Below are positions 7,014 through 36,677 of a DNA stretch of 64,000 nt, piece by piece. The notes beneath the pieces were generated by a model, which did no database searches, was not told the origin of the DNA, and saw only the letters and a list, made by a program, of their open reading frames with translations. The translations under genes were made by a program, and so were the position numbers. Numbering within the stretch: the stretch's first letter is position 1; the number at the start of each line of letters is the position of its first letter. Origin of the DNA: Hyphomonadaceae bacterium. GTDB taxonomy: Bacteria > Pseudomonadota > Alphaproteobacteria > Caulobacterales > Aquidulcibacteraceae. The stretch covers positions 62,001 through 126,000 of the forward strand of contig JAHDXR010000012.1 in NCBI GenBank assembly GCA_023384105.1. Reading direction: 5' to 3'.

Positions 7014-7016
7014 GCC

Positions 7017-9949: not shown

Positions 9950-10287
9950 ATCGCCCGCCCTTGTCCTGGCGCGATCCTCGCACCGGTTATTGTCCCTCGC
10001 CCCTATTAGGCGCTCCTGAGCGCGGCGGGAAGATGACGCGGGTCATGGATGGGCGGAGAAAACGGAATTTCTTTTCGTAGGCAAAGAGATAAGCGCAACG
10101 CCGAAGACGCCGCGCCGCTGATAGAAGCTCACCACCCCCGCTTCCCGGCCGCAGCGCAGCGAAGAGCCGGGACCCAGGGGCGAACGCACCGTACTTCACC
10201 CCCTGGGCCCCGGATCGCACCCCCGGCTTTCGCCGGGGCTGCGTCCGGGGAGCGGGTTGGGGCGGGGTTTGCGCGACGGGACGGCGC
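9950..10287. other. 338-bp gene-free interval upstream of the TIR gene
   Basis: The first about 180 bp (9950-10130) are the likely promoter and leader of the TIR gene and hold a moderately AT-rich patch at 10070-10100. The remainder is a family B repeat. No coding sequence with family features is seen on either strand. Confidence 0.6.
10133..10262. repeat. Family B dispersed repeat, copy 1
   Basis: The element runs from CGCTTCCCGGCCGCAGCGCA to GCTGCGTCCGGGGAGCGGG. Internal inverted pieces such as GGGACCCAGGGGCGAACGCA and CCCCTGGGCCCCGGATCGCA allow a long cruciform or hairpin. The same unit occurs at 63337-63453 and, inverted, at 39648-39772, 39878-39993 and 56104-56228. It lies between the divergent starts of nothing: both neighbours end or begin leftward, so it separates the E2 gene stop from the TIR promoter region. 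Confidence 0.85.
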
Positions 10288-11757
10288 TCACCGCTCGATG
10301 AACAGCGCCGCGGGATGTTCGAGCAGGCTTTTCACGCGCTGGATGAAGGCGGCGGCGTCGTAGCCGTCGACGACGCGGTGATCGAACGACGAACTCAGGT
10401 TCATCATCTTGCGCACGACGATCTGGCCGTTCTTCACCACCGGGCGCTCCACCAGCTTGTTGACGCCGATGATCGCCACCTCCGGGTGATTGATCACCGG
10501 CGTGGTGACGATGCCGCCCAGCGCGCCGAGCGAGGTGATGGTGATGGTGGAGCCGGAAAGTTCGTCCTTCGTCGCGGCGTTGGCGCGGACGGCGGCGGCG
10601 AGGCGCGCGACTTCGGCGGCGCAGTCCCACACGTCGCGCGCCTCGGCGTGGCGCACCACCGGCACGATCAGGCCGTTCTCCGTCTGCGTGGCGATGCCGA
10701 TGTCGACATTGTCGTGACGATAGACGACGCCCTGCTCGTCGTCGAAGCGGGCGTTGATCTGCGGGAAGTCCGGCAGCGCCAGCACCAGGGCGCGCATCAG
10801 GAACGGCAGCAGCGTGAGCTTCGGCTGCTCGTTGCGCTTGGTCGCGTTCAGATGCGCGCGCAGATCCTCCAGTTCGGTGAGATCGGCTTCCTCGACATAG
10901 GCGAAGTGCGGGATGCGGCGCTTGGCGTCCTGCATCTTCTCGGCGATCTTGCGGCGCAGACCGATCACCTTCACCGGCTCGACGCCGTTCTTCTCCGTCA
11001 GCACCGCGCCGCGGCGCGCGCCCACGGCGGGCACGAGTACGGCGTCCAAGTCTTCGTGGGTGATGCGCCCGTCCGGGCCGGTGCCGCGGACTTGATTGAG
11101 ATCGACGCCAAGCTTCTGCGCGCGCGCGCGTACGGCCGGCGAAGCCTGCGCCTGGCCCCACTCCTTCACGGCCGCGTCGCGCGGTTCGGGACGGGCGACG
11201 GCTTGCGACGGCGCGGGTTGGGGCTGAGGCGCCGGCTTGCTGGCGGGCGTCGAGGCGGCGGGCACAGGGCGCGCCTGCGGCGCGGCGCCCTGCATGGCGG
11301 CCTGCACGGCGTCTTCGCTCCAGACAGCGCCCGCGGGCGCTTTGATCTTGGGCTTTGGAGCGCTTGCTCCCCCGCTTGCGGGGGAGCTGTCAGCGGAGCT
11401 GACTGAGGGGGCGGCGCGCGCTCCGGCGTCCGACGTCTGCGCGGCTGCACCCCCTCCGTCGTGAGCTTCGCTCGCGCCGCCTCCCCCGTGAACGGGAGAG
11501 GAGTTGTCTGCGTCCGCTTCCGTCTCGAACACGGCGATGGTTCCGCCGACGGGGGCCATGTCGCCGGGTTCGCCGTGGATGGCGACGATCTTGCCGGCGA
11601 CGGGCGAAGTCATCTCCACCGTCGCCTTGTCGGTCATCACGTCGACGAGCGGGGCGTCCTCCTCAACGACATCGCCCACGCGCACGTGCCAGGCGACGAT
11701 CTCGGCCTCGGCGGTGCCTTCGCCCACGTCGGGCAGCTTGAAAACGTACTGGCCCAC
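10288..11757 (-). CDS. bkdB: Branched-chain 2-oxoacid dehydrogenase E2 (dihydrolipoyl acyltransferase)
   Basis: E2 carries the acyl group on lipoate and passes it to CoA. The 489-residue protein has one lipoyl domain with the lipoylated Lys44 in DVMTDKATVEM, a long linker (about 84-200), a subunit-binding domain (ASPAVRARAQKLGVDLNQVR, near 210) and the catalytic domain ending with the active-site DHRVVDG. The linker contains a repeat-derived segment (see 11366-11503). The ATG at 11757 is one base from the E1 beta stop. No E3 (lipoamide dehydrogenase) gene follows, so E3 must be supplied from elsewhere. Confidence 0.93.
   Translation of the reverse strand: MGQYVFKLPDVGEGTAEAEIVAWHVRVGDVVEEDAPLVDVMTDKATVEMTSPVAGKIVAIHGEPGDMAPVGGTIAVFETEADADNSSPVHGGGGASEAHDGGGAAAQTSDAGARAAPSVSSADSSPASGGASAPKPKIKAPAGAVWSEDAVQAAMQGAAPQARPVPAASTPASKPAPQPQPAPSQAVARPEPRDAAVKEWGQAQASPAVRARAQKLGVDLNQVRGTGPDGRITHEDLDAVLVPAVGARRGAVLTEKNGVEPVKVIGLRRKIAEKMQDAKRRIPHFAYVEEADLTELEDLRAHLNATKRNEQPKLTLLPFLMRALVLALPDFPQINARFDDEQGVVYRHDNVDIGIATQTENGLIVPVVRHAEARDVWDCAAEVARLAAAVRANAATKDELSGSTITITSLGALGGIVTTPVINHPEVAIIGVNKLVERPVVKNGQIVVRKMMNLSSSFDHRVVDGYDAAAFIQRVKSLLEHPAALFIER
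11366..11503. repeat. Repeat element inside the E2 interdomain linker
   Basis: The element is bounded by a hairpin at 11366-11387 (eight-base arms GCTCCCCC and GGGGGAGC, loop GCTTGC) and another at about 11482-11503 (CTCCCCCGTG and CGGGAGAG). A third, GTCAGC-GGA-GCTGAC, sits at 11389-11403. Read on the minus strand it is fully open and encodes the Ser/Gly/Ala-rich linker from about residue 86 to 136. The first two hairpins resemble a repeat often found between genes in alphaproteobacteria. Confidence 0.65.
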
Positions 11758-11758
11758 G

Positions 11759-12772
11759 TCAGCCCTCCATCACGCGGCGCATGGCTTTGACGATGCGCGG
11801 CGGGGTTGGGAAATACTCCCATTCGAGCGCGTGCGGATAGGGCGTGTCGTAGCCCGTGACGCGCTGGATCGGCGCTTCGAGGTGATAGAAGCAATGCTCC
11901 TGCACCAGCGCCGAAAGTTCGGCGCCGTAGCCCGAGGTGCGGGTCGCTTCGTGGACGATGACGCAGCGCCCGGTCTTGGCGACGCTTGCGGTGATCGCCT
12001 CGATGTCGACCGGCACAAGCGTGCGCAGGTCGATGATCTCGGCGTCGAGGCCGGACACTTCCGCCGCCGCGAGCGCGACGTGCACCATCGTGCCGTAGGC
12101 GAGCACGGTGACGTCCTGGCCGGCGCGCGCGACGTTCGCCTTGCCGAGCGGAATCCTGTAATAGCCCTCCGGCACGTCGCTGGCCGGGTGCTTCGACCAG
12201 GGCTGCACCGGGCGGTCGCGGCGGCCGTCGAACGGGCCGTTATAGACGCGCTTCGGCTCCATGAAGATGACCGGATCGTCGTCCTCGATGGCGGCGATCA
12301 GCAGTCCCTTGGCGTCGTACGGCGTCGATGGGATCACCGTCTTCAGGCCGGCGACGTGGGTGAACAGCGCTTCCGGCGACTGGCTGTGGGTCTGGCCGCC
12401 ATAGATGCCCCCGCCATAGGGCATGCGCACGGTGAGCGGCACGGTGTAGTCGTTGACCGAACGATAGCGGATGCGCGCCGCTTCCGAGACCAATTGGTCG
12501 TAGGCCGGATACATGTAGTCGGCGAACTGGATCTCGATCACCGGGCGCAGGCCGTAGACGGCCATGCCGATCGCGGCGGCGGCGATGCCGCACTCGTTGA
12601 TCGGCGCGTCGAAGCAGCGCTTCGCGCCGTGTTTCTGCTGCAGATGCTCGGTGACTTTGAACACGCCGCCGAAATAGCCGACGTCCTCGCCGAAGGTAAG
12701 CACCTTCGGATCGCGCTCCATCATGGTGTCGAGCGCCGAGTTCAGCGCCTGGATCATGGTCATCGCGGCCAT
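11759..12772 (-). CDS. bkdA2: Branched-chain 2-oxoacid dehydrogenase E1 subunit beta
   Basis: This is the beta half of the thiamine-diphosphate E1 heterotetramer that decarboxylates branched 2-oxoacids. The 337-residue protein shows GEDVGYFGGVFKVT near 28, the INECGIAAAAIGMA helix, and the C-terminal transketolase domain with DLRTLVPVDIEAI. Strong similarity of these segments to BkdA2 rather than PdhB separates it from pyruvate dehydrogenase. It follows the alpha gene after a 114-bp gap filled by a family A repeat and is one base from the E2 gene. Confidence 0.93.
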   Translation of the reverse strand: MAAMTMIQALNSALDTMMERDPKVLTFGEDVGYFGGVFKVTEHLQQKHGAKRCFDAPINECGIAAAAIGMAVYGLRPVIEIQFADYMYPAYDQLVSEAARIRYRSVNDYTVPLTVRMPYGGGIYGGQTHSQSPEALFTHVAGLKTVIPSTPYDAKGLLIAAIEDDDPVIFMEPKRVYNGPFDGRRDRPVQPWSKHPASDVPEGYYRIPLGKANVARAGQDVTVLAYGTMVHVALAAAEVSGLDAEIIDLRTLVPVDIEAITASVAKTGRCVIVHEATRTSGYGAELSALVQEHCFYHLEAPIQRVTGYDTPYPHALEWEYFPTPPRIVKAMRRVMEG

Positions 12773-12786
12773 GTTAGACGTCGCTT

Positions 12787-12871
12787 TCTTGGACCGCCGG
12801 CGTCCTCGCCGGCGTGTGTGCTTGATCGGTCGGTGCGGCGGCTCGCCGGCGAGGACGCCGGCGGTCCAAGA
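12787..12871. repeat. Family A palindromic repeat, copy 2, inside the bkd operon
   Basis: The two arms at 12787-12813 and 12845-12871 are 27-bp perfect inverted repeats (outer ends TCTTGGACCGCC and GGCGGTCCAAGA) with a 31-base loop. It is the only long gap in the operon. In the mRNA it would fold into a very stable hairpin between the alpha and beta genes, which may affect mRNA decay or their relative expression. Confidence 0.92.
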
Positions 12872-12886
12872 GAGAAGATCGGCGCA

Positions 12887-15160
<2,274 letters not shown>

Positions 15161-15164
<4 letters not shown>

Positions 15165-16948
15165 TGAATCGGCTCTTCCAGCAGAAGTTGGCGAGCGAAG
15201 CGGCCCGGCGGCGACCCGAACGACAGCACGCCGTCATGATAGCGCTTCAGGTTGAAATCGCCGCCCCAGCGGCGCTCCGCCTCGGCGCGGGTTTCCAGGT
15301 GCTCCTGGAAGCCGACGAAATAGGTCGAGAGCTGCGTGAACGAGAGCTGCGCGCGCCGCCACTTGCCCGCCGCCTCGCGCTCTTCCTGGAACGCGGTGTG
15401 CGTGAGCAGATGCATCATCTCATCGCGGCTCATGCCGTCGACATGGATGGCCTGGTCGATGATGGCGTTGGTGATGGTGCGCAGCTGCACCTTGAGCTGC
15501 GACAGCCGGTAGAGCGGATCGTCGGCGCGGAAGCCCTGCTCGATCATCATCTCTTCGGCATAGACCGCCCAGCCCTCGACGAACGAGCCCGACGACAGCA
15601 CCGCGCGCAGCACCGAGGGATAGGCGTTCGCATGCCAGAGCTGCACGTAATGGCCGGGCGAGCTTTCATGCACGGCGATGTCGAGGATGCCGCGATTGTT
15701 GTACTCGCGCAGGAACGACACGGCCTGCTCGTCGCTCCAGTCGTCCGGGATCGGCGAGACCGCGTAGAACGAGCCGAGGTCGCGCTCCAGCGGCCCCGGC
15801 GCGTCGAGATAGGCGACGGCGAAGCCGCGCTGGAACTCCGGCATCAGGATCACGCGCACCGGCTGCGGCGGCATGGCGATGATGTCGCGCGCATTGAGGA
15901 ACGCATCCGCTTCGGCGACGCCGGCCGTGGCGACTTCGACCAGCCGGTCGCGCGCGGGCCTGTCCGCGGCGGCGAGATCGAGCGCGGCGCGGATGGCGGC
16001 CTGCTGCTGCTCGGGGCTCGGATTGTCCGGCGTCGGCGGCGCATCGGTGCGGCCGGCGAGCGCCTGCCGGGCGACGCGATACATCTCCTCGCGCACGCCG
16101 ATCACGGCGGCGTCGGCGCGGCGGCGGATTTCGGCGCGCGAGAGATCGGATTGCAGCGTGAAACGCAGCTGGGTGTCGAACACCTCGGCGCCGACGCGGA
16201 AGTCCGCCTGCGCGGCGGGGACGAGCACGCCCTCGATCCAGGCCTGGTGCTCGTCGACGGCGGCGTTGAACGCGGCGATGGCGCGCTCCATGCGCCGCTG
16301 ATCGGCGGCGGAGAGTTCGCCCTTGTGCGGCTCGATCATGTCGGTGACGATCGACTTCAAGCCCCGGTTCTGCGCCGCGTAGGTTTCGGCGTGCGGCGCC
16401 GGCACGCGCGCGGGCTGCAATTCCCGGCGCGTCTTGCGCAGCAGTTCCGGAATAAGCTCCATCCGCGCAATGGCCGCGCGCAGCCGCTGCGGCAGCGGCG
16501 CGAACTCGCGCGCCATCAGCCCATAGAGCGCGCCGCCGGCGACGCCCTGATAGCCCAGCGGATTCCAGGCCCAGCTCTGCAGCGTCTCGGTGCGCCAGAT
16601 CTCGGCGCGGAGCGCGTTTTCGAGCAGCGCGTAATCGACCTGGTTGGCGCGCGAGAGCGCGCCGCGGTCGATGCGCTCGAGCTGGCGCAGCGTGTCGTGG
16701 GTGAAGCGCAGCGCCGCCGCGCGCCCGGCGGCGCTGACGTCGTCGATGCGGTTGTCGTAGCGGTGGTCGCCGATCTGCGTCGCCGACACCGGCGAAAAGC
16801 GCATCGAGCGGTCGAGCCAGCGCCGGCCCAGCGCTTCGAAGGCGCGGTCGGCGCGGCTTGACGTCTGGGCGAGGGCGTCGGCCGCGGCGAGCGGCGCGAG
16901 CATGGCGGATCCGAGCGCGAGAACGACCCGGCGGCGCGAGGTTTTCAT
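15161..16948 (-). CDS. Exported DUF885 protein, predicted metallopeptidase
   Basis: The protein has 595 residues from ATG 16948. The N-terminus MKTSRRRVVLALGSAMLAP is a twin-arginine-like signal ending ADALAQ, so the protein is exported. The family motif is AVHESSPGHYVQLWHAN (an HExxxGH arrangement), followed by SFVEGWAVYAEEMM, both expected for zinc-binding DUF885 enzymes. Its place as first gene of the leucine dehydrogenase-bkd operon suggests that it releases amino acids from peptides that the operon then degrades; this is inference. An upstream in-frame ATG at 17008 is less likely because it hides the signal. Confidence 0.88.
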
Positions 16949-23506: not shown

Positions 23507-23523
23507 CCGCCGCCCCGGGGGGG

Positions 23524-23561
23524 GGGCCCCCCGCCCATGGGGCCCCATGGGCGGGGGGCCC
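23524..23561. repeat. Perfect 38-bp palindrome upstream of tRNA-Arg
   Basis: The 19-base half GGGCCCCCCGCCCATGGGG is followed directly by its exact reverse complement with no loop. It is preceded by a run of ten G. It could act as a terminator for the amidohydrolase gene, but the lack of any loop or U-run is unusual; the sequence itself is certain as given. Confidence 0.8.
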
Positions 23562-23628
23562 TTCCCTATACTCTAACCGTCGACCCGCCTTGCAACAGCC
23601 GCAAGGGACGGCTATGCACGCGCCCTTC

Positions 23629-23705
23629 GCGCCCGTAGCTCAGCTGGATAGAGCACCAGACTACGAATCTGGGGGTCAGGAGTTCGAATCTCTTCGGGCG
23701 CGCCA
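23629..23705 (+). tRNA. tRNA-Arg (anticodon ACG)
   Basis: The 77-base gene has a seven-base acceptor stem (GCGCCCG with CGGGCGC), D arm GCTC...GAGC, anticodon stem CCAGA/TCTGG with loop CTACGAA (anticodon ACG), T arm AGGAG-TTCGAAT-CTCTT, discriminator G and an encoded CCA. A34 would be edited to inosine by TadA (5346-5942). The 3' part from 23659 is the attachment site of the integrative element, which leaves the tRNA gene intact. Confidence 0.97.
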
Positions 23706-23711
23706 TCCATC
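23659..23711. mobile_element. attL, 53-bp core repeat
   Basis: The repeat starts in the anticodon stem (GACTACGAATCTGGGGGTCA), includes the T arm, acceptor strand and CCA of tRNA-Arg, and ends TCCATC just beyond the gene. It is identical over all 53 bases to 36625-36677. The base before and after differs between the two copies (A/G and G/A), which fixes its limits. Confidence 0.96.
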
Positions 23712-23929: not shown

Positions 23930-25294
23930 ATGGCGGCGATTGAGCGTAAGGCGGACGCAAACCCGACGAAGGCGTTCTTCGTCCGGATCATCACCAAGGA
24001 CATTAGCCTCGAAGATTGCATCCTCGACCTCATCGACAACAGCGTTGACGGCGCTTGGAGATGCGAGGGTAGCCGACCGATCGGACTACAAGATGGGACT
24101 GACCTGTCGAAATACTCGATCATGATCGAAGCAACGCCTGACAAGTTTTCGATCATCGATAACTGTGGCGGCATGAGCCTCGACGACGCCGTTGAACACG
24201 CCTTCAGTTTCGGCCGCGAGGCAACTGAGGACCACGACGACTACAGCATCGGCGTTTACGGCATCGGCATGAAGCGCGCGGTGTTTAAGCTTGGCGGAAA
24301 CATCCGCGTCCGTAGCACCTATGACGACAAAGGCACGCGCAGCGCCTTCGCCGTTCCGATAAACGTGAGCAAGTGGCTCTCCAATGATAAACCGCCCTGG
24401 GATTTCGATATTGAAGAAGACGAACTCTTACCCAACAACGGCGTGGAGATTGTCGTGCAAGAGCTTACGCCGGGGGCGGCCGGCGCGTTCGAGAGCCCTG
24501 CATTTCTCCAGGGCCTAAGGCGGACGATTGCGCGCGACTATGCGCTTCACTTAAATCGGGGCCTCCGCATTTCGTTGAATGGCTCTGAGATTTCCGGTTG
24601 GAAGATTGAACTTCGGCAGAGCGAAGATTTTCAACCGATGCGCCTTGAATACAAAGACAAGGCAGACAACGAAGAAGTTTCTATCGAAATCATCGGCGGG
24701 ATGGCGGCGCCCCCTCCAGAGAGCAATGACCCGGAGGAAGAGGCAGACAACGAGAAACAGCCGCACGGCTGGTACGTCGTTTGTAACGGTCGCATCGTAT
24801 TGGCTGGCGATAAAACTGCGATTTCTGGTTGGGGTACGGACGATTGGCCGAATTGGCACCCTCAATACGCGGGCTTCATCGGGATTATCTTGTTTACTGC
24901 CGCCAACGCCGCGGCTTTGCCACTAACGACGACAAAGCGCAGCGTGGACATCACTTCGGACATTTATCGCCGCGCGCGCCCAAAGATGCGCGAGGTCTCC
25001 ACCAAATGGATCGCCTACACAAATCAACGCAAGCAAGCCGCGGATGAAGCCAAGGCGAAGGAAGCGCTGGCGGTGCCCGTGTCGATCTACTCGGTCGCGA
25101 AACGCGCGACAGTCGCACTGCCGGCACTAGTTTCGCGCCCTGCCGGCGAGCGCCTTGCGAACGTGCACTACTCTGTACCTGTTTCGAGACTCAAGAAGCT
25201 CGCTAAGGAATTGGGCGGCATCAACATGTCCAACCGCGAGGTCGGGTTGAAATCCTTCAATTACACATATGACGACCTTGTCGGGGGCGAGTGA
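23930..25294 (+). CDS. GHKL-fold ATPase (MutL/MORC/Hsp90-like)
   Basis: The protein has 454 residues. The GHKL ATP-binding domain (about 10-200) has the N box EDCILDLIDNSVDGA (the Asn and Asp that hold Mg), the G1 box DNCGGM and the G2 box IGVYGIGMKRAVF. An S5-like second domain follows and carries the late LTTTKRSVD, a likely ATP-contacting lysine. The Glu/Asp-rich insert at about 260-285 is a linker. ATG 23930 is preferred over TTG 23915 because GGGAGCGGGG precedes it. It is the first gene of the cassette and overlaps the next by one base (TGATG). Related ATPases are known in restriction-modification operons. The clamp or sensor role here is inference. Confidence 0.88.
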   Translation: MAAIERKADANPTKAFFVRIITKDISLEDCILDLIDNSVDGAWRCEGSRPIGLQDGTDLSKYSIMIEATPDKFSIIDNCGGMSLDDAVEHAFSFGREATEDHDDYSIGVYGIGMKRAVFKLGGNIRVRSTYDDKGTRSAFAVPINVSKWLSNDKPPWDFDIEEDELLPNNGVEIVVQELTPGAAGAFESPAFLQGLRRTIARDYALHLNRGLRISLNGSEISGWKIELRQSEDFQPMRLEYKDKADNEEVSIEIIGGMAAPPPESNDPEEEADNEKQPHGWYVVCNGRIVLAGDKTAISGWGTDDWPNWHPQYAGFIGIILFTAANAAALPLTTTKRSVDITSDIYRRARPKMREVSTKWIAYTNQRKQAADEAKAKEALAVPVSIYSVAKRATVALPALVSRPAGERLANVHYSVPVSRLKKLAKELGGINMSNREVGLKSFNYTYDDLVGGE

Positions 25295-26238
25295 TGGGCT
25301 CGTTCAATGTGGTCAACTACAGCCTGCGTCCGAGCAAAAGTGTCCAGCGGCAGATCATCTTCGAGGGCGTGAGGCTGCTCCACGACCATCTCGACTTGGA
25401 TGGCCAAGTGTACGTCGGGTTCGGCTCGGTATGGTTCACGGATTTCGTGCTTGCGCATAAGCTTCTCGGCATTCGCGACATGGTCTCGATCGAGGCAGAC
25501 GATGTTGGATTTCGACGTGCGAAGTTCAACGCGCCATACGCCACCGTTCGCGTCGTGCATGGACGGTCAACGACGGTTTTGCCCGAACTTTACAAGGACG
25601 AACTCATCACGAACCGGCCTTGGCTGATTTGGATGGACTTCGACTACGAGTTTGACGAGTCAATGAAGGACGATATTCGCGCGCTGATCGAAAACGCGAC
25701 GGAAAACAGCATTCTGATTGCCACCTTCAACGGCAACGAGATGAAGTACGGAAACGCGCCCGAAAGACCCGAGAGATTGCGAGAGCTCTTCGGCTCGGTG
25801 GTTCCGGATGAGCTCTCGAAGAAGGCGTGCAAAGATGAGCGAATGCAACAGACGCTTGCTGACCTTTCGCTTGACTTCATGCGCTCAGTCGCGGCGGAGC
25901 AGCGACGTCCGGGCGGTTTCGTTCCCGCATTTCGCGCCATCTATAAAGACACAACGCCGATGGTTACCGTTGGGGGTATTCTGCCGGCAAAAGGCGCTGC
26001 GCGCGTAGCGAGCGATGTCGTGAAACGAGAGTCATGGCCTTGCTGGCTGAGCAAACCGATCGTGGCTCCGCACCTCACCACGCGCGAGGCGGCGGTGCTA
26101 CAAGCGCAGTTGCCACGGGCCGGCAAGTTGTCGCGAGCGCTCGTGCAGTCCCTGGGTTTTGATCTTGAAGACGATCAAATCGAGGCCTTCGAAGCGTACT
26201 ACAAACACTACCCGGCCTTCGCTCAGGTCATTTCGTAA
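25294..26238 (+). CDS. Uncharacterised protein, predicted class I SAM-methyltransferase fold
   Basis: I do not recognise a named family. The 314-residue protein has a Rossmann-like order: VYVGFGSVWFTDFVLAHKLL (near 40-58, a motif I-like Gly-rich loop), an acidic residue after the next strand (VSIEADD), then LIWMDFDYEF (motif IV-like) and SILIATFNGNEM. This suggests a methyltransferase-like or degenerate nucleotide-binding fold. The C-terminal third has TVGGILPA and a helical end. ATG 25294 shares its A with the ATPase stop (TGATG), so the two proteins are probably made in fixed ratio and work together. Substrate and activity are unknown. Confidence 0.8.
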   Translation: MGSFNVVNYSLRPSKSVQRQIIFEGVRLLHDHLDLDGQVYVGFGSVWFTDFVLAHKLLGIRDMVSIEADDVGFRRAKFNAPYATVRVVHGRSTTVLPELYKDELITNRPWLIWMDFDYEFDESMKDDIRALIENATENSILIATFNGNEMKYGNAPERPERLRELFGSVVPDELSKKACKDERMQQTLADLSLDFMRSVAAEQRRPGGFVPAFRAIYKDTTPMVTVGGILPAKGAARVASDVVKRESWPCWLSKPIVAPHLTTREAAVLQAQLPRAGKLSRALVQSLGFDLEDDQIEAFEAYYKHYPAFAQVIS

Positions 26239-26314
26239 GCGAAGCAAACGCGCGATCGCCAACGCCGTTCTTCCGTGTTACAAATCAATAGTGCTTCGCT
26301 CGGCGCCGGATGAC

Positions 26315-27394
26315 ATGAACTTAGTTGACCTTTTCTCAGGGTGCGGCGGATTCTCGCTAGGCGCGCGTCAGGCTGGATTTCGCGTCGTCAGCGCATACGA
26401 CAACGATAGGATTCTATCGTCCTCCTATTCGTTGAACTTCCCTGAGAGCAATCTGCATCTCAAGAATATTGCCAAGCTGTCTGGCGCCGAAGTTCGACGC
26501 GAGGCTAGGCAAAGCATCGACGGAATTTTTGGCGGACCGCCTTGCCAAGGGTTCAGCGACATCGGAAAGCGAGAGCCTCGCGACCCGCGGCGGCAACTCC
26601 TAGGGCATTTTTTCCGCATCGTTAACGAGGTCGAACCGACCTTCTTCGTTATGGAGAACGTGCGAGGGCTCGCGTATGCCGACGCACGGGTTGTGCTTGA
26701 TCGCGCGTTACGTCGTGTGAGCGATCGCTATGCGATTCTAGGGCCGCAAATTTGGGAGGCGTCTGACTTCGGGGCAGCCACGAAGAGGCCTCGCCTTTTT
26801 GTGATCGGTGTTCATAAGGATCGCGGCGACGCGATCGAAGCCCGGGACATTGAGGCGCTTAAGTGCCCGGCGCCTACAGTGAAGGCCGCGATTGCTGACC
26901 TGGCCGGAGCAGAGGACCTGGGCGAGATCGACGGCTTCGATACCTGGAGGATTACGCATCCGGGCAGGCCTAGTGATTACGCGCGAATGCTGCGTGCGGC
27001 CGACGGTAGATTCACCGGGCAAAAATCTACCGCGCACACTCCGACTGTCATCAAGCGCTTTAGCAAGGTGCACCCGGGCTCCACTGACGTTGTGGGGCGC
27101 CACCCAAGACTTTCATGGGATGGTCTGTGCCCGACCCTTCGAGCCGGAACGGGGGCTGATCGGGGATCGTATCAGTCTGTTCGGCCGATCCATCCGGAGG
27201 AAAACCGCGTAATTACCGTTCGCGAAGCAGCCCGCCTGCAAGGCTTTCCGGATGCACATCGATTTCATCCTACGGTCTGGCACTCGTTTCGAATGATCGG
27301 AAACAGCGTATCCCCGTTCATGGCGAAGGCCATATTCTCTGCAATTCAAAAGAAGCTCGGGGTGGCGCAGGGGCATTCGATCGCCGCAGAATAG
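26315..27394 (+). CDS. DNA (cytosine-5-)-methyltransferase
   Basis: The 359-residue protein has all main C5-methylase motifs in order: I DLFSGCGGFSLG (5-16), IV GGPPCQGFSD with the catalytic Cys (near 81), VI MENVRG, VIII ATKRPRLFVIG, then a target-recognition region, IX with LCPTLRAGTG and REAARLQGFPD, and X MIGNSVSP. The start at ATG 26315 puts motif I near the N-terminus as usual; a GTG at 26291 is the alternative. The short target-recognition region fits a single recognition sequence, which cannot be told here. It is followed by vsr after 4 bases. Confidence 0.95.
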   Translation: MNLVDLFSGCGGFSLGARQAGFRVVSAYDNDRILSSSYSLNFPESNLHLKNIAKLSGAEVRREARQSIDGIFGGPPCQGFSDIGKREPRDPRRQLLGHFFRIVNEVEPTFFVMENVRGLAYADARVVLDRALRRVSDRYAILGPQIWEASDFGAATKRPRLFVIGVHKDRGDAIEARDIEALKCPAPTVKAAIADLAGAEDLGEIDGFDTWRITHPGRPSDYARMLRAADGRFTGQKSTAHTPTVIKRFSKVHPGSTDVVGRHPRLSWDGLCPTLRAGTGADRGSYQSVRPIHPEENRVITVREAARLQGFPDAHRFHPTVWHSFRMIGNSVSPFMAKAIFSAIQKKLGVAQGHSIAAE

Positions 27395-27398
27395 CGGC

Positions 27399-27818
27399 AT
27401 GGATCACATCTCGCCGGCGCGTCGCTCGTGGCTCATGGCGCAGGTGGCGTCAAAGAACACCTCGCCAGAGATTCGCGTCCGAAAGGCCGCGCACGGGCTG
27501 GGGCTGCGCTTTCGATTGCATCGGCACGATCTTCCTGGGAAACCCGACCTGGTCTTTGCCAAGCACTCTACAGTCGTGTTCGTCCACGGATGCTTTTGGC
27601 ATAGACACCCTGGCTGCGTTAAAGCCAGCACTCCCAAGTCGCGAACGACGTTCTGGTGCGAAAAGTTCGACAAGAATGTCGAGCGGGATCGATTGACGAA
27701 CAATGCGCTGCGCAGGCTGGGTTGGAGAGTGGCGACGATTTGGGAGTGTCAGACGAAGTCACCCAAATTGCTGCATCGTCGATTGCAGAGGATTTTTGGC
27801 GGTCAGATAGGCAGATAA
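27399..27818 (+). CDS. vsr: Very short patch repair (Vsr-type) endonuclease
   Basis: Vsr nicks 5' of T in T:G mismatches left by deamination of 5-methylcytosine, so it protects the sites of the neighbouring methylase. The 139-residue protein has RSWLMAQVASKNTSPEIRVR, the catalytic LPGKPDLVFAKH, GCFWHRHPGC, and the FWCEKFDKNVERD segment, all as in Vsr. The length is normal. Vsr-type proteins in R-M operons may also act as nickases in restriction. It lies 4 bases after the methylase stop and 6 bases before the HNH gene. Confidence 0.95.
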   Translation: MDHISPARRSWLMAQVASKNTSPEIRVRKAAHGLGLRFRLHRHDLPGKPDLVFAKHSTVVFVHGCFWHRHPGCVKASTPKSRTTFWCEKFDKNVERDRLTNNALRRLGWRVATIWECQTKSPKLLHRRLQRIFGGQIGR

Positions 27819-27824
27819 CCCGCA

Positions 27825-28691
27825 ATGAAGGCCGTGTTCGATACAAAGGCGAGCTCAGCATATGACGATGACGTCACTCGCCGATATCATTTTCCGGGAC
27901 GGTATCTCGATATTGTTTCGAGAACTGTAGGTGACTTTGTCGTATTCCGTGAACCGCGCGATGGCGGAGGGAGCAAAGCGTACTTCGCAACGGCGCGCGT
28001 CGATCGCGTGGAGCCGGACGCCACTACTTCCGGGCATTATTACGCGTTTGTCTCGGATTATTTGACATTTGCCCGACCCGTCCCCTGGCGGGTCAACGGC
28101 CGCTACTTTGAAGGGTCTCTGAGGGCAATCGAGAACGTGCCCCAGGTCGGTCTGTATCTTCGCGGCCGTTCTGTCCGCGAGATAAGTGAAGACGACTATC
28201 GCGACATTGCAATGATTGGGCTTAACAGCGCGATTGAAGCAGCGGGTATTGATCTTGCGCAAGTCAGTCCCGACCGGCGTGTAGCGCAGTGTCTTGTAAG
28301 CAGGCCTGTTCGAGATGCTGCTTTCCGAATTGCGGTTTGCTCCGCATATGACAACCGGTGCGCCTTTCTCGGCTGGAAGATTTGCGATCGGTTGGGGCGC
28401 TTTGAATCGCAGGCCGCGCACGTCCTACCGGTGGCACTTGGTGGACCCGATATCATTCAGAACGGCATCGCCTTGTCAGCGACTATGCACTGGTTATTTG
28501 ATCGACATTTGGTGTCTGTGTCCGACGACTATCGATTGCTCGTGAGCGATGCCGTGCCGTTAGAGGTTCGCCGCCTCATCGAACAGCCGGAGGGGCGGAT
28601 TGAGCTACCGAGAGACAGAGGCTTATGGCCTAGTCAAACCTACCTTGCGCAACACCGGCATAGTTTCGCCATGACGGCGCAGCGGGCATAG
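27825..28691 (+). CDS. HNH endonuclease with PUA/EVE-like N-terminal domain
   Basis: The protein has 288 residues. The C-terminal HNH nuclease (about 165-225) shows YDNRCAFLGW, SQAAHVLPVALGGPDI, QNGIALSATMHWLFD: His, Asn and His at the expected spacing. The N-terminal region (about 20-95), with YHFPGRYLDIVSRTVGDFVV and HYYAFVSDYLTF, resembles the EVE/PUA-like sensor part seen in similar putative restriction enzymes; such domains often bind modified bases. It is the most likely restriction nuclease of the cassette, but a modification-dependent activity is possible too. It is the last gene of the rightward run. Confidence 0.87.
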   Translation: MKAVFDTKASSAYDDDVTRRYHFPGRYLDIVSRTVGDFVVFREPRDGGGSKAYFATARVDRVEPDATTSGHYYAFVSDYLTFARPVPWRVNGRYFEGSLRAIENVPQVGLYLRGRSVREISEDDYRDIAMIGLNSAIEAAGIDLAQVSPDRRVAQCLVSRPVRDAAFRIAVCSAYDNRCAFLGWKICDRLGRFESQAAHVLPVALGGPDIIQNGIALSATMHWLFDRHLVSVSDDYRLLVSDAVPLEVRRLIEQPEGRIELPRDRGLWPSQTYLAQHRHSFAMTAQRA

Positions 28692-30647: not shown

Positions 30648-32837
30648 TCACGGCGTCGCCTCCGACCCAAGCAGGTCGGCGAGCGAGCGCTTGGGGCGGA
30701 CCTTCACAATTGGCACGGGCTTGCGCTCTTCGTTTTTGCCGGCGCCACGGATCAGCCAACCCGCTTGGAGCGCGGCCTTGATCTTGGCCTTCACTTCCGC
30801 CTTGGCCTGCGGATCGTCCAAGTCGAGACCAAGCGCCTGCGCGAATGCCTCGCCAACCCAATCCTTTTTCGAGAGCGCGTGTTCGCGCCACTCCGGCTTT
30901 ACCGACATGGCTGCAACAATCTTCGCGCGCTCGGCGTCCGTGGTGCTGGCGATGTCCGGCGGCTCCCATGCAACGGTCACGCCGATGCGGTCTCCATCGT
31001 CTTTCTCGAAGCTCCCGTTATTCAAGGGGACCGATTTCAGGTGACGCCAGACGGCCGCGCCGAGCGGCGCCAAGTTGGCCTTCCCGGAGTCCACGCGGAA
31101 ATAGGCCCATGCGTCAGACGGGGCGACGCCGAGCTTGGGCGCTTCTTCCGGGCTCATCTTGTTGAGCACGCGGGCATAGCGGCAAGCGGCGATCATGGCG
31201 CCAGCGCCCAATGAATCGTCCACGCGGTAGTCCGTCTGCCCCGGCGCGCCCTTGCGCGTGTGGTGGACAAGCATGACGGCGCAATTCGCTTCCTTCGCGA
31301 TGCGCCCCCACACGCCGCGAACGATCTTGCCGATGGCGTCGTTATCGTTCCCTTGGACCGCATGCGTGGCAATGAATGGGTCCACGATTAGCACGTCAAT
31401 CTTGAGCTTGATCAGCCAAGCGACGAATTTCTTGATCAGCTTCTTATTGAGGATCACGGCGCCGCGGTCGGTGTGCGCGACCACAAGGGGGCTATCCACC
31501 GCCTTGACCACTAGGCGGCCCTCATAGCCTGTGCCTTCAATCTTGGATTCGAATTCGATGCGCGCGGCGTGAAAGCGGCGGTGTTGCTCTTCCATGTCGT
31601 CCTCGGCTTGCCAGTAGCAGACGCGCAAAGGACCGTCCGGCGCGTCGCCAATGAGATTGACGCCGCTAATCATCGCCATCACTTCGCTGACAAGGCATGA
31701 GCTTTTGCCCATGCCGCCGGGGCCAATCGTGGCGCTGACATATCCGCGCGTGTAGGCGCTGCCCGCGTAGAGCATTTGTCGGCGCGGGACCTTAGCCGCT
31801 TCTTTCCAGTCCATGATCGGTAGGAAGGGCGAAGCTGAATTGGAATCCTCATCGCCGAACGAGTCGAAGCCTACATCCGGCGCGGCCTTCCATTCCTTAT
31901 CGCAGGCAGAGCTAATCTCATCCTTGCTAAGGTCGATGATGTCGGGATCATGGGCGACGGTCGCTAGGAATTGCCCATTGCTTTTTCCCGCAATCGCGGC
32001 TTCGCGTGCGTGCTTGTGAATGCGCGCCTTAGCCCACGCGCGATTCAGGGCGCGCTCGGCGTCCGCCTGCCGCTCAACATGCGCCGATGCGTCGGCGTCA
32101 GCTGCCACGGCGTCGGTGAAACCCTCACGATCCTTCGAAAACACACATTCGCGCGCCAGATTAAAAAGCGCCGCCGAGCCGCTTCCGTCCTTTACGCGCT
32201 CGCGGTCGCGGTCCCCGTCCCGCTCGCGGGGCTTGGTGCGCTTGGGGAGCGCGCCAGCATCAAGATCGTCGCAATCGTCAATGTAGCGGCCTTCGGCAAA
32301 CACCGGTGCCGGATGATCCGCGCCGGTCGGGCGTCCATAGAAGCTCGCCTGCGAAAGCGTGAAGCTGGCGTGCTGATCAATCTCGCCGTCGAACAACCCG
32401 TTGACCCAAGATGCGTAGCGGTCACGTTCGGCCGGCTCGCGTTCTGAGCGGAACGGAAGGTATGCGTGCCAAGACGGGTTATCGTGGCTGTAAGAGGCCG
32501 AAGGCACGATTAGCGCGGCAACTTCCGCGCGCTCAAATATCTTGCGGGCGCGTTCCATCGTGATCTTCTTGGCGGCGGCGGATTCGCCATTGCAATCGTA
32601 GTCGATCTCGAGGCCCGTAACCGTCCGCACGTTGGCGTTGTTGCGGAGACTGCCGTGCTCTGAACGCTTGTCGCCATAGGTTTGCAGTTTGATCGAAGGC
32701 AACTGCTCCTTGGTCTCACGTTCAGTGCGCTGAATCTCGAAGCTGAGTTCACGCAAGCTCATCTTGAGTGATTGCTTCGACTTACCCTTGCGGCTTGGGA
32801 AGCGGGTCATTTTCAGCGGCTTATCCAAAGGGGTCAT
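30648..32837 (-). CDS. Replication protein: primase-like N-terminus with RepA/AAA_25-type helicase ATPase
   Basis: The 729-residue protein has a RecA-like ATPase at about 345-560: Walker A GPGGMGKSSCL, Walker B DVLIVDPFIATH and a downstream VMLVHHTRKG, as in RepA-type and phage D5/AAA_25 helicases. The N-terminal 200 residues (TGLEIDYDC, IVPSASYSHDNPSWHAYLPF) resemble archaeo-eukaryotic primase or prim-pol domains used by phages and satellites. The C-terminal helical part may bind the iterons at 30466-30624. Its ATG overlaps the previous stop (ATGA at 32834-32837), so it is translated from the backbone operon. The role is replication of the excised element. Confidence 0.85.
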   Translation of the reverse strand: MTPLDKPLKMTRFPSRKGKSKQSLKMSLRELSFEIQRTERETKEQLPSIKLQTYGDKRSEHGSLRNNANVRTVTGLEIDYDCNGESAAAKKITMERARKIFERAEVAALIVPSASYSHDNPSWHAYLPFRSEREPAERDRYASWVNGLFDGEIDQHASFTLSQASFYGRPTGADHPAPVFAEGRYIDDCDDLDAGALPKRTKPRERDGDRDRERVKDGSGSAALFNLARECVFSKDREGFTDAVAADADASAHVERQADAERALNRAWAKARIHKHAREAAIAGKSNGQFLATVAHDPDIIDLSKDEISSACDKEWKAAPDVGFDSFGDEDSNSASPFLPIMDWKEAAKVPRRQMLYAGSAYTRGYVSATIGPGGMGKSSCLVSEVMAMISGVNLIGDAPDGPLRVCYWQAEDDMEEQHRRFHAARIEFESKIEGTGYEGRLVVKAVDSPLVVAHTDRGAVILNKKLIKKFVAWLIKLKIDVLIVDPFIATHAVQGNDNDAIGKIVRGVWGRIAKEANCAVMLVHHTRKGAPGQTDYRVDDSLGAGAMIAACRYARVLNKMSPEEAPKLGVAPSDAWAYFRVDSGKANLAPLGAAVWRHLKSVPLNNGSFEKDDGDRIGVTVAWEPPDIASTTDAERAKIVAAMSVKPEWREHALSKKDWVGEAFAQALGLDLDDPQAKAEVKAKIKAALQAGWLIRGAGKNEERKPVPIVKVRPKRSLADLLGSEATP

Positions 32838-34206: not shown

Positions 34207-35043
34207 CTAGCCCGCGTCCCTTATGAGCAGCGGTGCCGGCGATCCGTCCGCGTTCTGGGCCAACGTCCATCGCTCCCACTGCCCATCGGAAAGCACTTCC
34301 AGAATTCGCTGTGAGACGGCGTGCGGTGTTTGGACTTTGAACCACAATGGGCGCGGCTGGACCCCTCGCGGGTCTCGTAGGTTGCGGCCTGCAATGGCAG
34401 CGGCTACCTCAGATTCAAATGCGCAGACGAAACGCACAGCGCTATCGGTGCGCTCCTTGCCGTCCTTATCCTCGCGTCGGCGCTTACTCGCCGCGCTGTC
34501 GGTGGGCTTGACCCAGAAGAGGAGATTGAAGACAGCAAGCAGTTGGGCTGTCCACACCATGCGTTCGCGTTCTTTGTGACGCGGGCGCCCACCCGTGGCG
34601 TGACATGCGAGCGCATCCGCTAGCCAACGCTCAAACGCCGCCGCGCCGTCGAAGTTGTCTCGAATGTCGAAGGGAGATGGAATTGGGCCAAGGCGGCCTT
34701 TGCCGGCTGCATTGTCGATTGCCGCCATTACCTTCTCTCGCGTCTGTTGTGTGGGGTTCGCCTTATGACGGCGCCACGCCAAAACCAGCGGATCAAGGTC
34801 ATGTCGTTTTGATAACTGAGGTCCGGCGAATGCGCGATGCGCGGCTTGCTCCGCGAGCGTCTCTAACACCATGAAGCAAGCCGTTTCGACTGCCTCCGGC
34901 GCCGCGATGTCGAGATTGGCGCTGTTCGCGATTCGCAGGATTGCGTCACCATCTAGGAGTCGCGGCGTCGAGCGCGCCCATGCGGCGGCTGTCAGCCGCG
35001 CGCGCATTTCACGCGATATCGGGGCTTCGTTCCATCCGCTCAA
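34207..35043 (-). CDS. Hypothetical protein next to the integrase
   Basis: The protein has 278 residues, soluble, mostly helical, with no motif I recognise. Features seen are a central PIPSPFDIRDNFDG and a C-terminal segment with HAVSQRILEVLSDGQWERWT. Its ATG overlaps the integrase stop (ATGA 35040-35043), so it is translated with the integrase. Proteins in this position sometimes assist recombination or replication control; there is no evidence for either here. Confidence 0.7.
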   Translation of the reverse strand: MSGWNEAPISREMRARLTAAAWARSTPRLLDGDAILRIANSANLDIAAPEAVETACFMVLETLAEQAAHRAFAGPQLSKRHDLDPLVLAWRRHKANPTQQTREKVMAAIDNAAGKGRLGPIPSPFDIRDNFDGAAAFERWLADALACHATGGRPRHKERERMVWTAQLLAVFNLLFWVKPTDSAASKRRREDKDGKERTDSAVRFVCAFESEVAAAIAGRNLRDPRGVQPRPLWFKVQTPHAVSQRILEVLSDGQWERWTLAQNADGSPAPLLIRDAG

Positions 35044-36449
35044 GAGTCGCGGCCGTGCATCGGGATGACCGCAGCGCTTTTGCCGGTCATCTGAGCTTGA
35101 ATTTTGAGTGCGATGGCATCGCCCGCGCGGCGCACCGGGTCAGTTTCAAGATGGCTGTATTTCTGCGTGGTCTTCACGTCCGCATGTCCAAGCAACTTGC
35201 CAACGATGGGCAAACCCATGCCACCGCCGACGCCAACCGACGCGAAGGAATGGCGTAGATCGTGGATTCGCAGATCACTCAGCTTGGCATGTGCCGTGAT
35301 GCGCGCCCAAGGGCGGTGTAGATCGGCGCGCGGGGTTTCGTCCTTCGCGCCCGCCGACTCCGATGCGATCACGTAGCGACCAACGCGCGGAAGACCGGCG
35401 AGCACTTCCAGCGCGGGCGCCGTCAAGATGAGAGGCTTCTTGCCCGTCTTGCTGTCGGGCAGAAACGCAAGGCCGCGCTCGGTATCAACTTGCGACCATT
35501 CGAGATGCAGAATCTCGCGAAGGCGCGCCCCGGTGAAGATGAGCAAGCGCACGGCCGCGACCGCGAACGGATCGACCATGACGTGACGGTTTTTCTCTTT
35601 CGGTGCGTGCTTCGCTTTCGGGCCGGGACGCGGTCCCCACATCAAGCCTTCCGTCTCGGCTAAGCGCAGTGTTTCGCCGAGACGCGCGAACTCTTCCGTT
35701 TTCAAGAAGCGCTCGCGCGAGTTTTCGGGGAAGCGCTCAATCGCCTTCGCCGGGTTGCGGTGATCTTCGGGCAACGCTCCGTGCTTCGCGCCCCATGCGT
35801 AGGCTGCCGCAATCAGCGTAACGGTCGCGTTCGCCGTGCGCGGCTGCGTCTTGCCCATCTCGCGGTGCAGCTTCGCCACATCCTGACGCGTCAGCGCGAT
35901 CGCCTTCTTTCCGCCGAGCGCACCGGGCAAGAGTGGGCTGCTTGGGTCCTTCTTGTCCTGACGCGGCGCGATGAAGCTTTTCAGATACCCCTCATAGAGC
36001 GCCAGCGTCGCCGGCTTGCGCTTGGGCTTCACGTGTTCGTCAAGATAAGCGCGGATCAATTGTGAAAGCGTCTCGGCGCGGCGCGCGGCCTGTCGCTCTT
36101 CCATTGGATCACGGCCAAGGCGGACTTCGGCGCGCATATCCTTTGCGACCTGTTTCGCATCTTCAAGCGTCATGGTGCCAACGGCCGCAATGGTGATGCG
36201 TTTCTTGGGCGCGTCACGGCCGCCGTTCACCGGGCGATATTCGAGGATGAAGGCCGCCTTGCGGGACGCGTGAAAGCGGACGCCGAACCCTTTCACCTTG
36301 GAGTCGAAGAACGTCACGGCCTCGCCCGGTGTGAAGCGCACGCCTGCGTCCGGCTTTCCTTCTTCGGCGCAGAGCGTCACGGCGCGACCGTCGCGGGCTG
36401 CGTCCGTAAGCGCCTTCAATTCGCGGCGTCCAAGGTTGATCGTGGGCAT
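35040..36449 (-). CDS. int: Tyrosine recombinase (integrase) of the element
   Basis: The integrase moves the element between attP and the tRNA-Arg site. The protein has 469 residues. The N-terminal DUF4102-type arm-binding part has SKVKGFGVRFHASRKAAFIL. The core-binding SAM-like domain spans about 120-210. The catalytic domain shows Arg in FTGARLREILHLEW, HDLRHSFASVG, LGHADVKTTQKYSH with His and the nucleophile Tyr. It lies 175 bp from attR, at the usual end of such elements, and is the first gene of the leftward backbone operon. Confidence 0.95.
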   Translation of the reverse strand: MPTINLGRRELKALTDAARDGRAVTLCAEEGKPDAGVRFTPGEAVTFFDSKVKGFGVRFHASRKAAFILEYRPVNGGRDAPKKRITIAAVGTMTLEDAKQVAKDMRAEVRLGRDPMEERQAARRAETLSQLIRAYLDEHVKPKRKPATLALYEGYLKSFIAPRQDKKDPSSPLLPGALGGKKAIALTRQDVAKLHREMGKTQPRTANATVTLIAAAYAWGAKHGALPEDHRNPAKAIERFPENSRERFLKTEEFARLGETLRLAETEGLMWGPRPGPKAKHAPKEKNRHVMVDPFAVAAVRLLIFTGARLREILHLEWSQVDTERGLAFLPDSKTGKKPLILTAPALEVLAGLPRVGRYVIASESAGAKDETPRADLHRPWARITAHAKLSDLRIHDLRHSFASVGVGGGMGLPIVGKLLGHADVKTTQKYSHLETDPVRRAGDAIALKIQAQMTGKSAAVIPMHGRDS

Positions 36450-36624: not shown

Positions 36625-36677
36625 GACTACGAATCTGGGGGTCAGGAGTTCGAATCTCTTCGGGCGCGCCATCCATC
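36625..36677. mobile_element. attR, 53-bp core repeat with tRNA-Arg 3' fragment
   Basis: The copy is identical to 23659-23711. It contains the 3' half of tRNA-Arg from the anticodon stem to CCA (36625-36671), without a 5' half, so it is not a functional tRNA. It marks the chromosomal side of the right boundary. Confidence 0.96.

Follow-up and report, generated by a model that had tools for sequence, protein, structure and literature searches.

Five rightward open reading frames (ORFs) lie in close order at 23,930–28,691 of the window, the 64,000-nucleotide stretch of Hyphomonadaceae DNA that was analysed (Table 1). Their coordinates agree with those of an initial annotation of this DNA and bear out its gene order and spacing. 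The ATPase and partner genes have one base in common at a TGATG junction, the cytosine-5 (C5) methylase starts 76 bp past the partner end, vsr lies 4 bp past the methylase and the HNH gene 6 bp past vsr.

Table 1. Coordinates of the cassette genes and of features of the element that carries them (position 1 is the first letter of the window)
Feature	Position	Strand	Evidence
tRNA-Arg(ACG), integration target; the complete gene is at the element's left end	23629..23705	+	ARAGORN
Left attachment repeat, 53 bp	23659..23711	+	exact direct repeat with 36625–36677
MORC-type GHKL-S5 ATPase, 454 aa	23930..25294	+	HATPase_c_3; MORC S5 motif; predicted fold
Methyltransf_35 partner, 314 aa, Trm1-like class-I SAM fold	25294..26238	+	PF20553; predicted fold
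DNA cytosine-5 methyltransferase, 359 aa	26315..27394	+	PF00145 and TIGR00675 over cut-off; PDB 3g7u
Vsr-type mismatch endonuclease, 139 aa (add-on)	27399..27818	+	TIGR00632
HNH_2 endonuclease, 288 aa (add-on; candidate restriction enzyme)	27825..28691	+	PF13391; TagI-like HNH part
Element AAA_25 ATPase, possibly a replication protein	30648..32837	-	PF13481, E 1.5e-27
Element integrase, tyrosine recombinase with arm-type domain	35040..36449	-	PF00589, E 9.3e-19; PF13356
Right attachment repeat, 53 bp	36625..36677	+	exact direct repeat with 23659–23711

The methylase matches the Pfam family DNA_methylase (E 1.3e-56) and the PDB sequence 3g7u (E 2e-80). The Vsr protein matches Pfam Vsr (E 1.5e-28) and TIGR00632 (143.5 bits; cut-off 97.85), and the last protein matches HNH_2 (E 2.9e-7), its HNH part resembling TagI (E 8.8e-4). 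For the first two proteins, HATPase_c_3 (E 2.3e-11) and Methyltransf_35 (E 1e-90, 304.7 bits against a curated cut-off of 27, residues 3–312) were the sole Pfam matches in a scan to E 0.5. The initial annotation was right to see here a restriction-modification-like cassette with a MORC/MutL-like ATPase and a SAM-fold partner that are foreign to ordinary type II systems.

The cassette is carried by an element of about 13 kb integrated at a tRNA-Arg gene. The mobile setting that had been claimed is borne out by the paired 53-bp repeats, the left one of which overlaps the 3' part of the tRNA gene, and by the tyrosine integrase. In a same-genus comparison (29 other genomes searched, 11 loci read), eight loci gave no element match and carried a complete tRNA-Arg gene close to the right flank; the tRNA gene lay within 124 bp of the flank in five (L102, L106, L108, L109 and L111) and about 440–710 bp away in three (L103, L107 and L110).

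The window ATPase has a MORC S5 motif (GWYVVCNGRIV) at residue 280 and a Lys-finger motif (PLTTTK) at residue 331. The S5 pattern that defines MORC proteins, GhXhhpXXRhl (Iyer et al., 2008), was found in 54 of 55 ATPases including that of the window (exception: L077), compared with 9 of 453 other ORFs of at least 300 aa and 5 of 1100 shuffled ATPases. The Lys finger, P-x-[TNS]-[TS]-[TSA]-K, is likewise present in 54 of 55 (all but the broken L023). An N box of the form D-[LF]-x-D-N occurs in 54 of 55; its first place is Glu in MORC and Hsp90. An AF2 model of the ATPase (pLDDT 86.2) had MORC3 as its best VIA match (5ix2; Z 22.9, rmsd 3.5 over 296), and residues 11–395 align to MORC3, MORC4 and MORC2 with Z 21–23. 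Matches to Hsp90 and TRAP1 came within about 1 Z unit of those to MORC, so that MORC cannot be told apart by fold alone. For ATPase and partner, sequence searches of PADLOC and the PDB returned nothing informative, and an ATPase profile met topoisomerase VI-B and MORC in the PDB at E 0.1–0.5 only. By its motifs and modelled fold, the protein is a bacterial relative of the gene-silencing MORC proteins of animals and plants, most like MORC3, MORC4 and MORC2.

The partner was modelled with a pLDDT of 91.2 and is closest to the tRNA methylase Trm1 (3axs; Z 16.2, rmsd 4.2 over 227). The model confidently predicts a class-I SAM-methyltransferase fold, as the initial annotation had proposed. A motif-I-like pattern is present in 47 of 49 partners, the exceptions (L010 and L023) being N-terminally incomplete, and by eye, in the two alignments inspected, every row that reaches residue 67 has E or D there. 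This SAM-binding loop and acid place the predicted fold within the class-I methyltransferases, and methyl transfer is a predicted activity. The idea of a hidden nuclease was rejected on the predicted class-I fold, with no nuclease among the 50 matches listed or in the structure comparison that gave Trm1.

To define the conserved unit, we assembled 54 sequence clusters of relatives, anchored on ATPase motifs. The motifs were derived from 12 aligned seed sequences, each from a PF20553-bearing locus, and the methylase profile was built on 10 sequences of those loci, so that the census figures describe this subfamily; the genomes searched for the pair were Pseudomonadota. The partner is present in 48 of 54 clusters and a C5 methylase in 49, but Vsr is present in 14 and an HNH match in 4, of which L015 alone has a full-length HNH. 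Using these profiles, 31 clusters comprise ATPase, partner and methylase only. All five kinds of gene were found by these profiles in just two other clusters, L016 and L025, the HNH match of L025 (43 bits) lying about 5 kb away, and we do not take the five genes together to be the natural unit. On these sequence counts, the conserved unit is MORC ATPase, Methyltransf_35 protein and m5C methylase, and Vsr and HNH are add-ons of the window copy. The initial annotation would have given up its cassette if the first two genes usually occurred apart from methylase and nucleases; the link to the methylase stands and that to the nucleases does not.

Pairing of the first two genes is close. The partner lies strictly downstream on the same strand in 46 of 54 clusters, and the ORFs overlap in 40 of these, a figure that may be overstated since first possible starts were used. 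Among viral loci found by ATPase patterns alone, the partner adjoins the ATPase in 70 of 76. A PF20553-based search recovered nine distinct genomes, seven with the ATPase gene directly upstream; in the other two, the contig starts inside the partner gene (G705) or the copy is broken (G956). A single-protein scan gave two loci in genome contigs and none in viral contigs. In six clusters no partner was found next to the ATPase; the contig end truncates one of these, L090, and the ATPase is longer in the other five. A terminal HEPN domain in the longer partner-less ATPases was not confirmed: Pfam to E 5 gave no such domain, and R-x4-6-H occurred in three of six, not at one aligned place.

A C5 methylase was found within about 7 kb round the ATPase gene in 40 of 42 viral cluster representatives, and none of at least 80 bits in the remaining 390,614 bp of the same contigs; the association is therefore more than chance. 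In 20 of 54 clusters the operon of the core genes showed no additional ORF (3 of the 20 near a contig edge; L053 lacks the C5 methylase and L084 the partner). The proposal that the ATPase is a clamp gating linked nucleases is unlikely as a general explanation, because these 20 clusters have no further operon gene to gate. Absence of nucleases was judged by the Vsr profile, an HNH profile built from two sequences, operon reading and a Pfam tally of the families listed (25 of 51 and 25 of 43); among 48 neighbours scanned, the families listed included one HNH_5/HNH protein. A nuclease encoded elsewhere may contribute.

Of the neighbour proteins within 3 kb (368 in all), those whose families recur in at least three clusters are phage genes (assigned partly by Pfam, otherwise by eye), except for a 259–277-aa ORF in L010, L018 and L075. 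P2-like prophage copies sit between portal and gpA, and the pair also occurs in lambdoid and Pf phage settings. One version of the three-gene unit was found in 173 of 5,426 E. coli genomes, and about 4% of the complete genomes searched for this species have the three-gene set; the methylase of one E. coli version has a solved structure (3g7u). The flanks of two annotated loci in E. coli consist of phage and host-type genes only. The L071-type cassette was not found in the E. coli genomes searched, nor was the PfAC20 pair in E. coli genomes by DNA search. Elsewhere, in single loci, the pair lies within the DISARM locus of a Microvirga (L009; drmA, drmB, drmC) and, in Colwellia, beside dndB, dndE and dndC/D-type genes. 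L023 was weighed as a second Dnd context and set aside as weak, having one DndE-like domain just under cut-off and no dndB–D among the neighbours scanned.

Across 41 systems, ATPase and partner distances correlate with r 0.92, and those of either protein with the methylase with r 0.50–0.52. L018 and L056 share 61% identity in the ATPase and 34% in the methylase, while L018 and L075 share 26% and 71%, respectively. ATPase and partner thus co-diverge while the methylase is exchanged. Since one kind of pair is served by methylases of several lineages, recognition of the target sequence is probably not a task of the pair.

From the genes, predicted folds, pairing, co-divergence, methylase exchange and mobile or prophage locations observed, we infer that the three genes, carried by phages and mobile elements, probably serve to distinguish self from foreign DNA. 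The reading we prefer, at a probability of a little under one half, is a modification-coupled anti-invader system with MORC ATPase, Methyltransf_35 protein and C5 methylase as its core and the pair as its acting, restricting half. The methylase, judging by its family, would mark resident DNA. The ATPase, by fold an ATP-dependent dimer clamp, would form the acting half with the partner and engage DNA that lacks the mark; closure on that DNA may block, damage or silence it, the Trm1-fold subunit serving as effector or as SAM-dependent switch. The pair would more likely take its specificity from the methylase, as where one methyltransferase serves both modification and restriction. In the window copy, Vsr would repair T:G mismatches created by m5C and HNH would add a conventional nuclease.

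The strongest competitor, though an unlikely one, is the initial annotation's own view of an ordinary type II system of methylase, HNH and Vsr, with the MORC pair as an accessory that stimulates the nuclease or gates it spatially, close to a DNA-looping proposal of 2008 (PMC2292703). The tight spacing of vsr and HNH behind the window methylase fits this account, as do an HNH gene preceding the pair in L003, L015 and L016 and the methylase/Vsr/259–277-aa ORF set that adjoins distant pairs in L010, L018 and L075. It is at odds with the 31 clusters of core genes only, with the flanks of the two E. coli loci and with the nearest relatives (L014, L019 and L002), which have no HNH match, although L014 has a 260-aa ORF without Pfam match at that place.

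A more doubtful proposal is that the system works without a nuclease and is the bacterial equivalent of MORC/DNA-methylation silencing in eukaryotes. The clamp would close on DNA without the resident m5C (or other) mark and shut it down by compaction or through the Trm1-fold effector acting on nucleic acid. The same pair would plug into m5C, phosphorothioate and DISARM marks, because it would sense what state the marking enzyme is in instead of reading a sequence.

Still less probable is an abortive, toxin-like form, in which the ATPase guards the mark and, when the mark is missing, lets go of the Trm1-fold protein, which then modifies tRNA or other RNA and stops growth. The folds closest to the partner include several RNA methyltransferases (Trm1, METTL16, RsmD and CmoM), and related ATPases occur with PD-(D/E)xK nuclease (VcSduA; PMC12137116), HEPN (PMC3710099) and TIR (PMC2292703) effectors. 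However, the fold is silent on substrate, rank among class-I methyltransferases carries little weight and small-molecule enzymes appear in the same list. An effector swap within the subfamily is likewise unsupported, since the longer partner-less ATPases have no informative Pfam match in their C-terminal part.

It is improbable that the partner adds a second layer of modification, methylating DNA or existing m5C with the ATPase as its DNA clamp and no restriction by the pair. The conserved SAM-binding features would suit such a role, but 48 of 49 partners have W-[LMF]-D-[YF] after strand 4, not the [SDN]PP[FYW] or PC of known DNA methylases. The [SDN]PP[FYW] form is also quoted in PMC10853773. 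Least plausible by far is a selfish addiction or lysogeny-related gene set without a defence role, brought together by shared hotspots: prophage and integrative-element locations agree with it, but the link between pair and methylase persists from one element to another, with most of the genes around them differing.

The biochemistry of bacterial MORC proteins has been described as poorly understood (PMC8011034), and a small three-gene set makes a MORC role in policing DNA modification directly testable. The partner is covered by neither the defence catalogue (PADLOC) nor the PDB sequences searched. The subfamily also suggests that, at loci filed as orphan or incomplete methylases, the other half of the system may be present after all.

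We found no report on the activity of any family member in the open-licence literature searched. The passages of PMC12458937, PMC10853773 and PMC9519451 with GHKL/MORC terms, and of PMC9122126 with methylase and HATPase terms, contain no match to this pair. DISARM (drmA, drmB, drmC) and Dnd genes are absent from the five cassette proteins and seven element ORFs. Of the parts of a type II system, the window has a DNA methylase; its HNH_2 gene is a candidate for the endonuclease of the same specificity.

VcSduA (Shedu type I-D), whose antiphage activity was shown experimentally, also has a GHKL ATPase, there of the paraMORC3 kind and proposed to control the effector (PMC12137116). In VcSduA the nuclease is fused in one protein and no methylase partner was seen in the text consulted, whereas the window cassette consists of separate genes, with no DUF4263 nuclease domain fused to its ATPase in a Pfam scan. 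The gene order of ATPase, partner and C5 methylase recurs in the PfAC20 'incomplete' RM system; in the passages concerned, its cytosine methyltransferase alone is named as a defence gene (PMC11878078). The HEF_HK/Response_reg_2 systems (Bellieny-Rabelo, 2021; PMC8011034, which cites Furuta 2010 for RM-linked ATPases) have the same architecture, a GHKL protein and dedicated partner by a C5 methylase, to which Vsr or HNH_2 is often added. Their ATPase has HEF_HK and their partner is PF19192, whereas the window partner is PF20553; PF19191 and PF19192 were absent from the window pair in the Pfam scan to E 0.5. Also close in theme are the prokaryotic MORC and paraMORC restriction-modification operons of Iyer, Abhiman and Aravind (2008; PMC2292703), which agree with the initial annotation that GHKL ATPases were already known in such operons. 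There too, MORC-motif GHKL-S5 ATPases adjoin cytosine methylases and Vsr, and HNH occurs with paraMORC1. About 70% of those MORC neighbourhoods include an SFII helicase, which the window cassette lacks, and a helicase-free minority was noted; the text consulted makes no mention of a Methyltransf_35-like partner. MORC-plus-RM operons have thus been known since 2008, and a search of the main text of open-licence papers did not turn up the partner, the co-divergence or the nuclease-poor form.

The initial annotation described five rightward genes forming a cassette on a mobile element. All five were found in the window, with the coordinates and spacings it proposed (table), and in gene order they belong to the Pfam families HATPase_c_3, Methyltransf_35, DNA_methylase, Vsr and HNH_2; dcm and vsr score above the NCBIfam cut-offs. 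The cassette is the leftmost part of an element of 12,966 bp, measured between the starts of its two flanking repeats. These are copies of an exact 53-bp repeat, which overlaps a tRNA-Arg; an integrase is encoded at the opposite end. Eleven same-genus loci were compared. Eight of them have no match to the element and carry a complete tRNA-Arg close to the right flank, five within 124 bp and three at ~440-710 bp; L101 and L105 show no tRNA. In L104, another same-genus genome, a sequence 66% alike to the integrase region adjoins the same tRNA-Arg flank, which suggests repeated use of the site. A search of 12 further genomes from the genus gave no hit to PF20553 (Methyltransf_35). A long G/C-rich palindrome, seen by eye between the end of an ORF (23506) and the tRNA-Arg gene, is possibly a terminator.

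Coordinates of the cassette genes and of features in related loci
Feature	Source	Coordinates	Strand
MORC-type GHKL ATPase	window	23930-25294	+
Methyltransf_35 partner	window	25294-26238	+
C5 methylase	window	26315-27394	+
Vsr	window	27399-27818	+
HNH	window	27825-28691	+
G/C-rich palindrome	window	23508-23563	
259-277-aa ORF adjoining methylase and Vsr, in systems with distantly related pairs	L010	10861-11655	
same	L018	6508-7341	
same	L075	7127-7906	
Three-gene unit on filamentous phage	L008, Pseudomonas phage PfAC20	280-4035	
Pair with DISARM genes	L009, Microvirga terrae plasmid (NZ_CP102847.1)	1-17592	
Pair with dnd-type genes	L003, Colwellia sp. TT2012	315-16786	
Broken pair	L023, genome G956	9211-11533	

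A PF20553-anchored search was positive in 1 of 21 genomes (own and relatives), in 5 of 398 from the phylum, in 5 of 385 from the class and in 2 of 369 from the class to which a further genome, G112, belongs, giving 9 distinct genomes once repeats were removed. The ATPase gene lies immediately upstream in seven of these; the G705 contig starts inside the partner gene, and in G956 the ATPase gene is split over two frames and the partner gene has an in-frame stop, reflecting either decay or an assembly error. A C5 methylase is nearby in seven of the nine, with none near in G318 and G956. Two plasmid sequences and a single phage sequence matched by tblastn, and a search anchored on the ATPase motifs yielded 76 viral loci (partner in 70, C5 methylase in 74). 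Viral and earlier loci together (88) formed 54 clusters at 85% ATPase identity, a set that leaves out the window as well as L020, where an ATPase gene is missing. By the profiles used, pair and methylase occur alone in 31 clusters, with Vsr in 10, with Vsr and an HNH hit in 2, and with HNH but no Vsr in 1; ATPase and methylase occur without the partner in 4, and with Vsr in 1 more. The remaining 5 clusters have no C5 methylase (L003, L017, L023, L053 and L090). Five of the six clusters lacking the partner have longer ATPases (573-631 aa; L084, L087, L088, L089, L094), whose C-terminal part has no Pfam name and which have repetitive linkers in L087 and L088; the sixth, L090, is truncated by a contig end. 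As a control, 40 of 42 viral representatives carried a C5 methylase in the ~7 kb around the ATPase, and no methylase of at least 80 bits was found in the other 390,614 bp of these contigs.

Over 41 complete systems, window included, ATPase and partner distances correlated at 0.92, and methylase distances at 0.50 with the ATPase and 0.52 with the partner (permutation P 0.0005 for each). The methylase has been exchanged under the pair: L018 and L056 share 61% ATPase but 34% methylase identity, whereas L018 and L075 share 26% and 71%. Within 85% clusters no full swap was seen, the lowest methylase identity listed being 79% under 88% ATPase identity. Such low identities suggest that the exchanged methylases differ in target; if so, the swap would be fatal to a pair that cut at a sequence of its own.

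Few nucleases were recognised beside the unit. In 20 of the 54 clusters (three of which lie close to the edge of a contig), no further ORF of at least 50 aa shares the operon with the core genes. Of the families among 368 proteins encoded within 3 kb, those recurring in at least three clusters look phage-like, except a 259-277-aa ORF in L010, L018 and L075. With its E...QAK stretch, reminiscent of a PD-(D/E)xK enzyme, this ORF looks by eye like a restriction enzyme; the two members scanned (L010, L018) gave no Pfam match. A tally of Pfam families covered 118 of 120 neighbour proteins from 20 clusters (18 of those without a further ORF, plus L095 and L002). The families listed (the first 25 of 51 and 25 of 43) were mostly of phage or housekeeping type, but included an AbiEii-like AAA_21 and a single HNH_5/HNH protein. 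For the window HNH, the loci contain just one full-length relative, that of L015 (39% over 292 aa).

The AlphaFold2 model of the window ATPase (pLDDT 86.2) best matched MORC3 (5ix2; Z 22.9, r.m.s.d. 3.5 over 296 residues), MORC4 and MORC2 in VIA-align 2; Hsp90/TRAP1, SMCHD1 and topoisomerase VI-B followed closely. Because Foldseek ranked TRAP1 first and MORC3 37th, the modelled fold alone would assign the protein to the GHKL-S5 class. The S5 motif specific to MORC proteins (Iyer et al., PMC2292703) is present in 54 of 55 ATPases, including that of the window. Chance matches numbered 9 in 453 unrelated ORFs and 5 in 1100 shuffles. The Lys-finger motif is likewise retained in 54 of 55, and as many have an N-box Asp at the place occupied in MORC and Hsp90 by the catalytic Glu.

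PF20553 carries only the name 'putative O-methyltransferase'. The confident partner model (pLDDT 91.2, pTM 0.89) best matched the tRNA G26 methylase Trm1 (3axs; Z 16.2, r.m.s.d. 4.2 over 227 residues, within residues 4-307); by title, nearly all other entries of the best 50 are SAM methyltransferases, many acting on RNA, or spermidine synthases. A motif-I-like loop was seen in 47 of the 49 partners, and strand 4 is followed by W-[LMF]-D-[YF] in 48 of the 49. The partner likely binds SAM.

DISARM or Dnd genes accompany the pair at single loci. The Microvirga plasmid combines DISARM genes (DrmD, MmeI-like, DrmA, DUF1998, DrmC), pair, C5 methylase and Vsr in a single gene run. Three of the five loci without a C5 methylase have other notable neighbours: in Colwellia (L003), pair and HNH face dndB-, dndC-, dndD- and dndE-type genes, adjoining a 2413-aa protein of HerA-like look (by eye); L017 has a SNF2-type helicase, NOV_C and an N6/N4 methylase; L053 has a PLD-helicase and an MmeI-like methylase.

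In E. coli one copy of the unit lies in a lambdoid prophage and another in a P2-like prophage between portal and replication endonuclease, a place we read as the antiviral-gene hotspot known in P2-like phages (PMC9122126). Among 5,426 complete genomes, the L067 unit occurs in 173 at ≥99% identity (172 with ≥80% coverage), and an L039-like unit in 47 in the 60-80% band (45 with ≥80% coverage; 78% among the matches listed). RefSeq names the three genes ATP-binding protein, O-methyltransferase and DNA cytosine methyltransferase; the L067 methylase is the protein of PDB 3g7u, differing over 367 aligned residues only at the first and last.

The simplest interpretation is a modification-coupled exclusion system, in which the methylase would mark self DNA and the MORC ATPase and partner would act on DNA without the mark. 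That the units are nuclease-poor suggests direct action by the pair, and the exchange of methylases suggests its sequence-independence; single loci are the basis for its plug-in use with other marks. The partner may be an effector, a SAM-dependent switch or a second modifier, and we give most weight to the first two.

The initial annotation allowed that the general theme was not new, and operons joining MORC/paraMORC to DCM, Vsr and HNH have indeed been published, with DNA looping between recognition and cleavage sites proposed in 2008 (PMC2292703). The searches of open-licence papers did not turn up the Methyltransf_35 partner, the near-constancy and co-divergence of its pairing, the three-gene form poor in nucleases or the E. 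coli prophage frequency. The PfAC20 system has been classed as incomplete RM (PMC11878078), and DNA entrapment and condensation are reported for a nematode MORC (PMC8277788). The HEF_HK and Response_reg_2 system described in 2021 (PMC8011034) is a sibling pair in which the partner differs.
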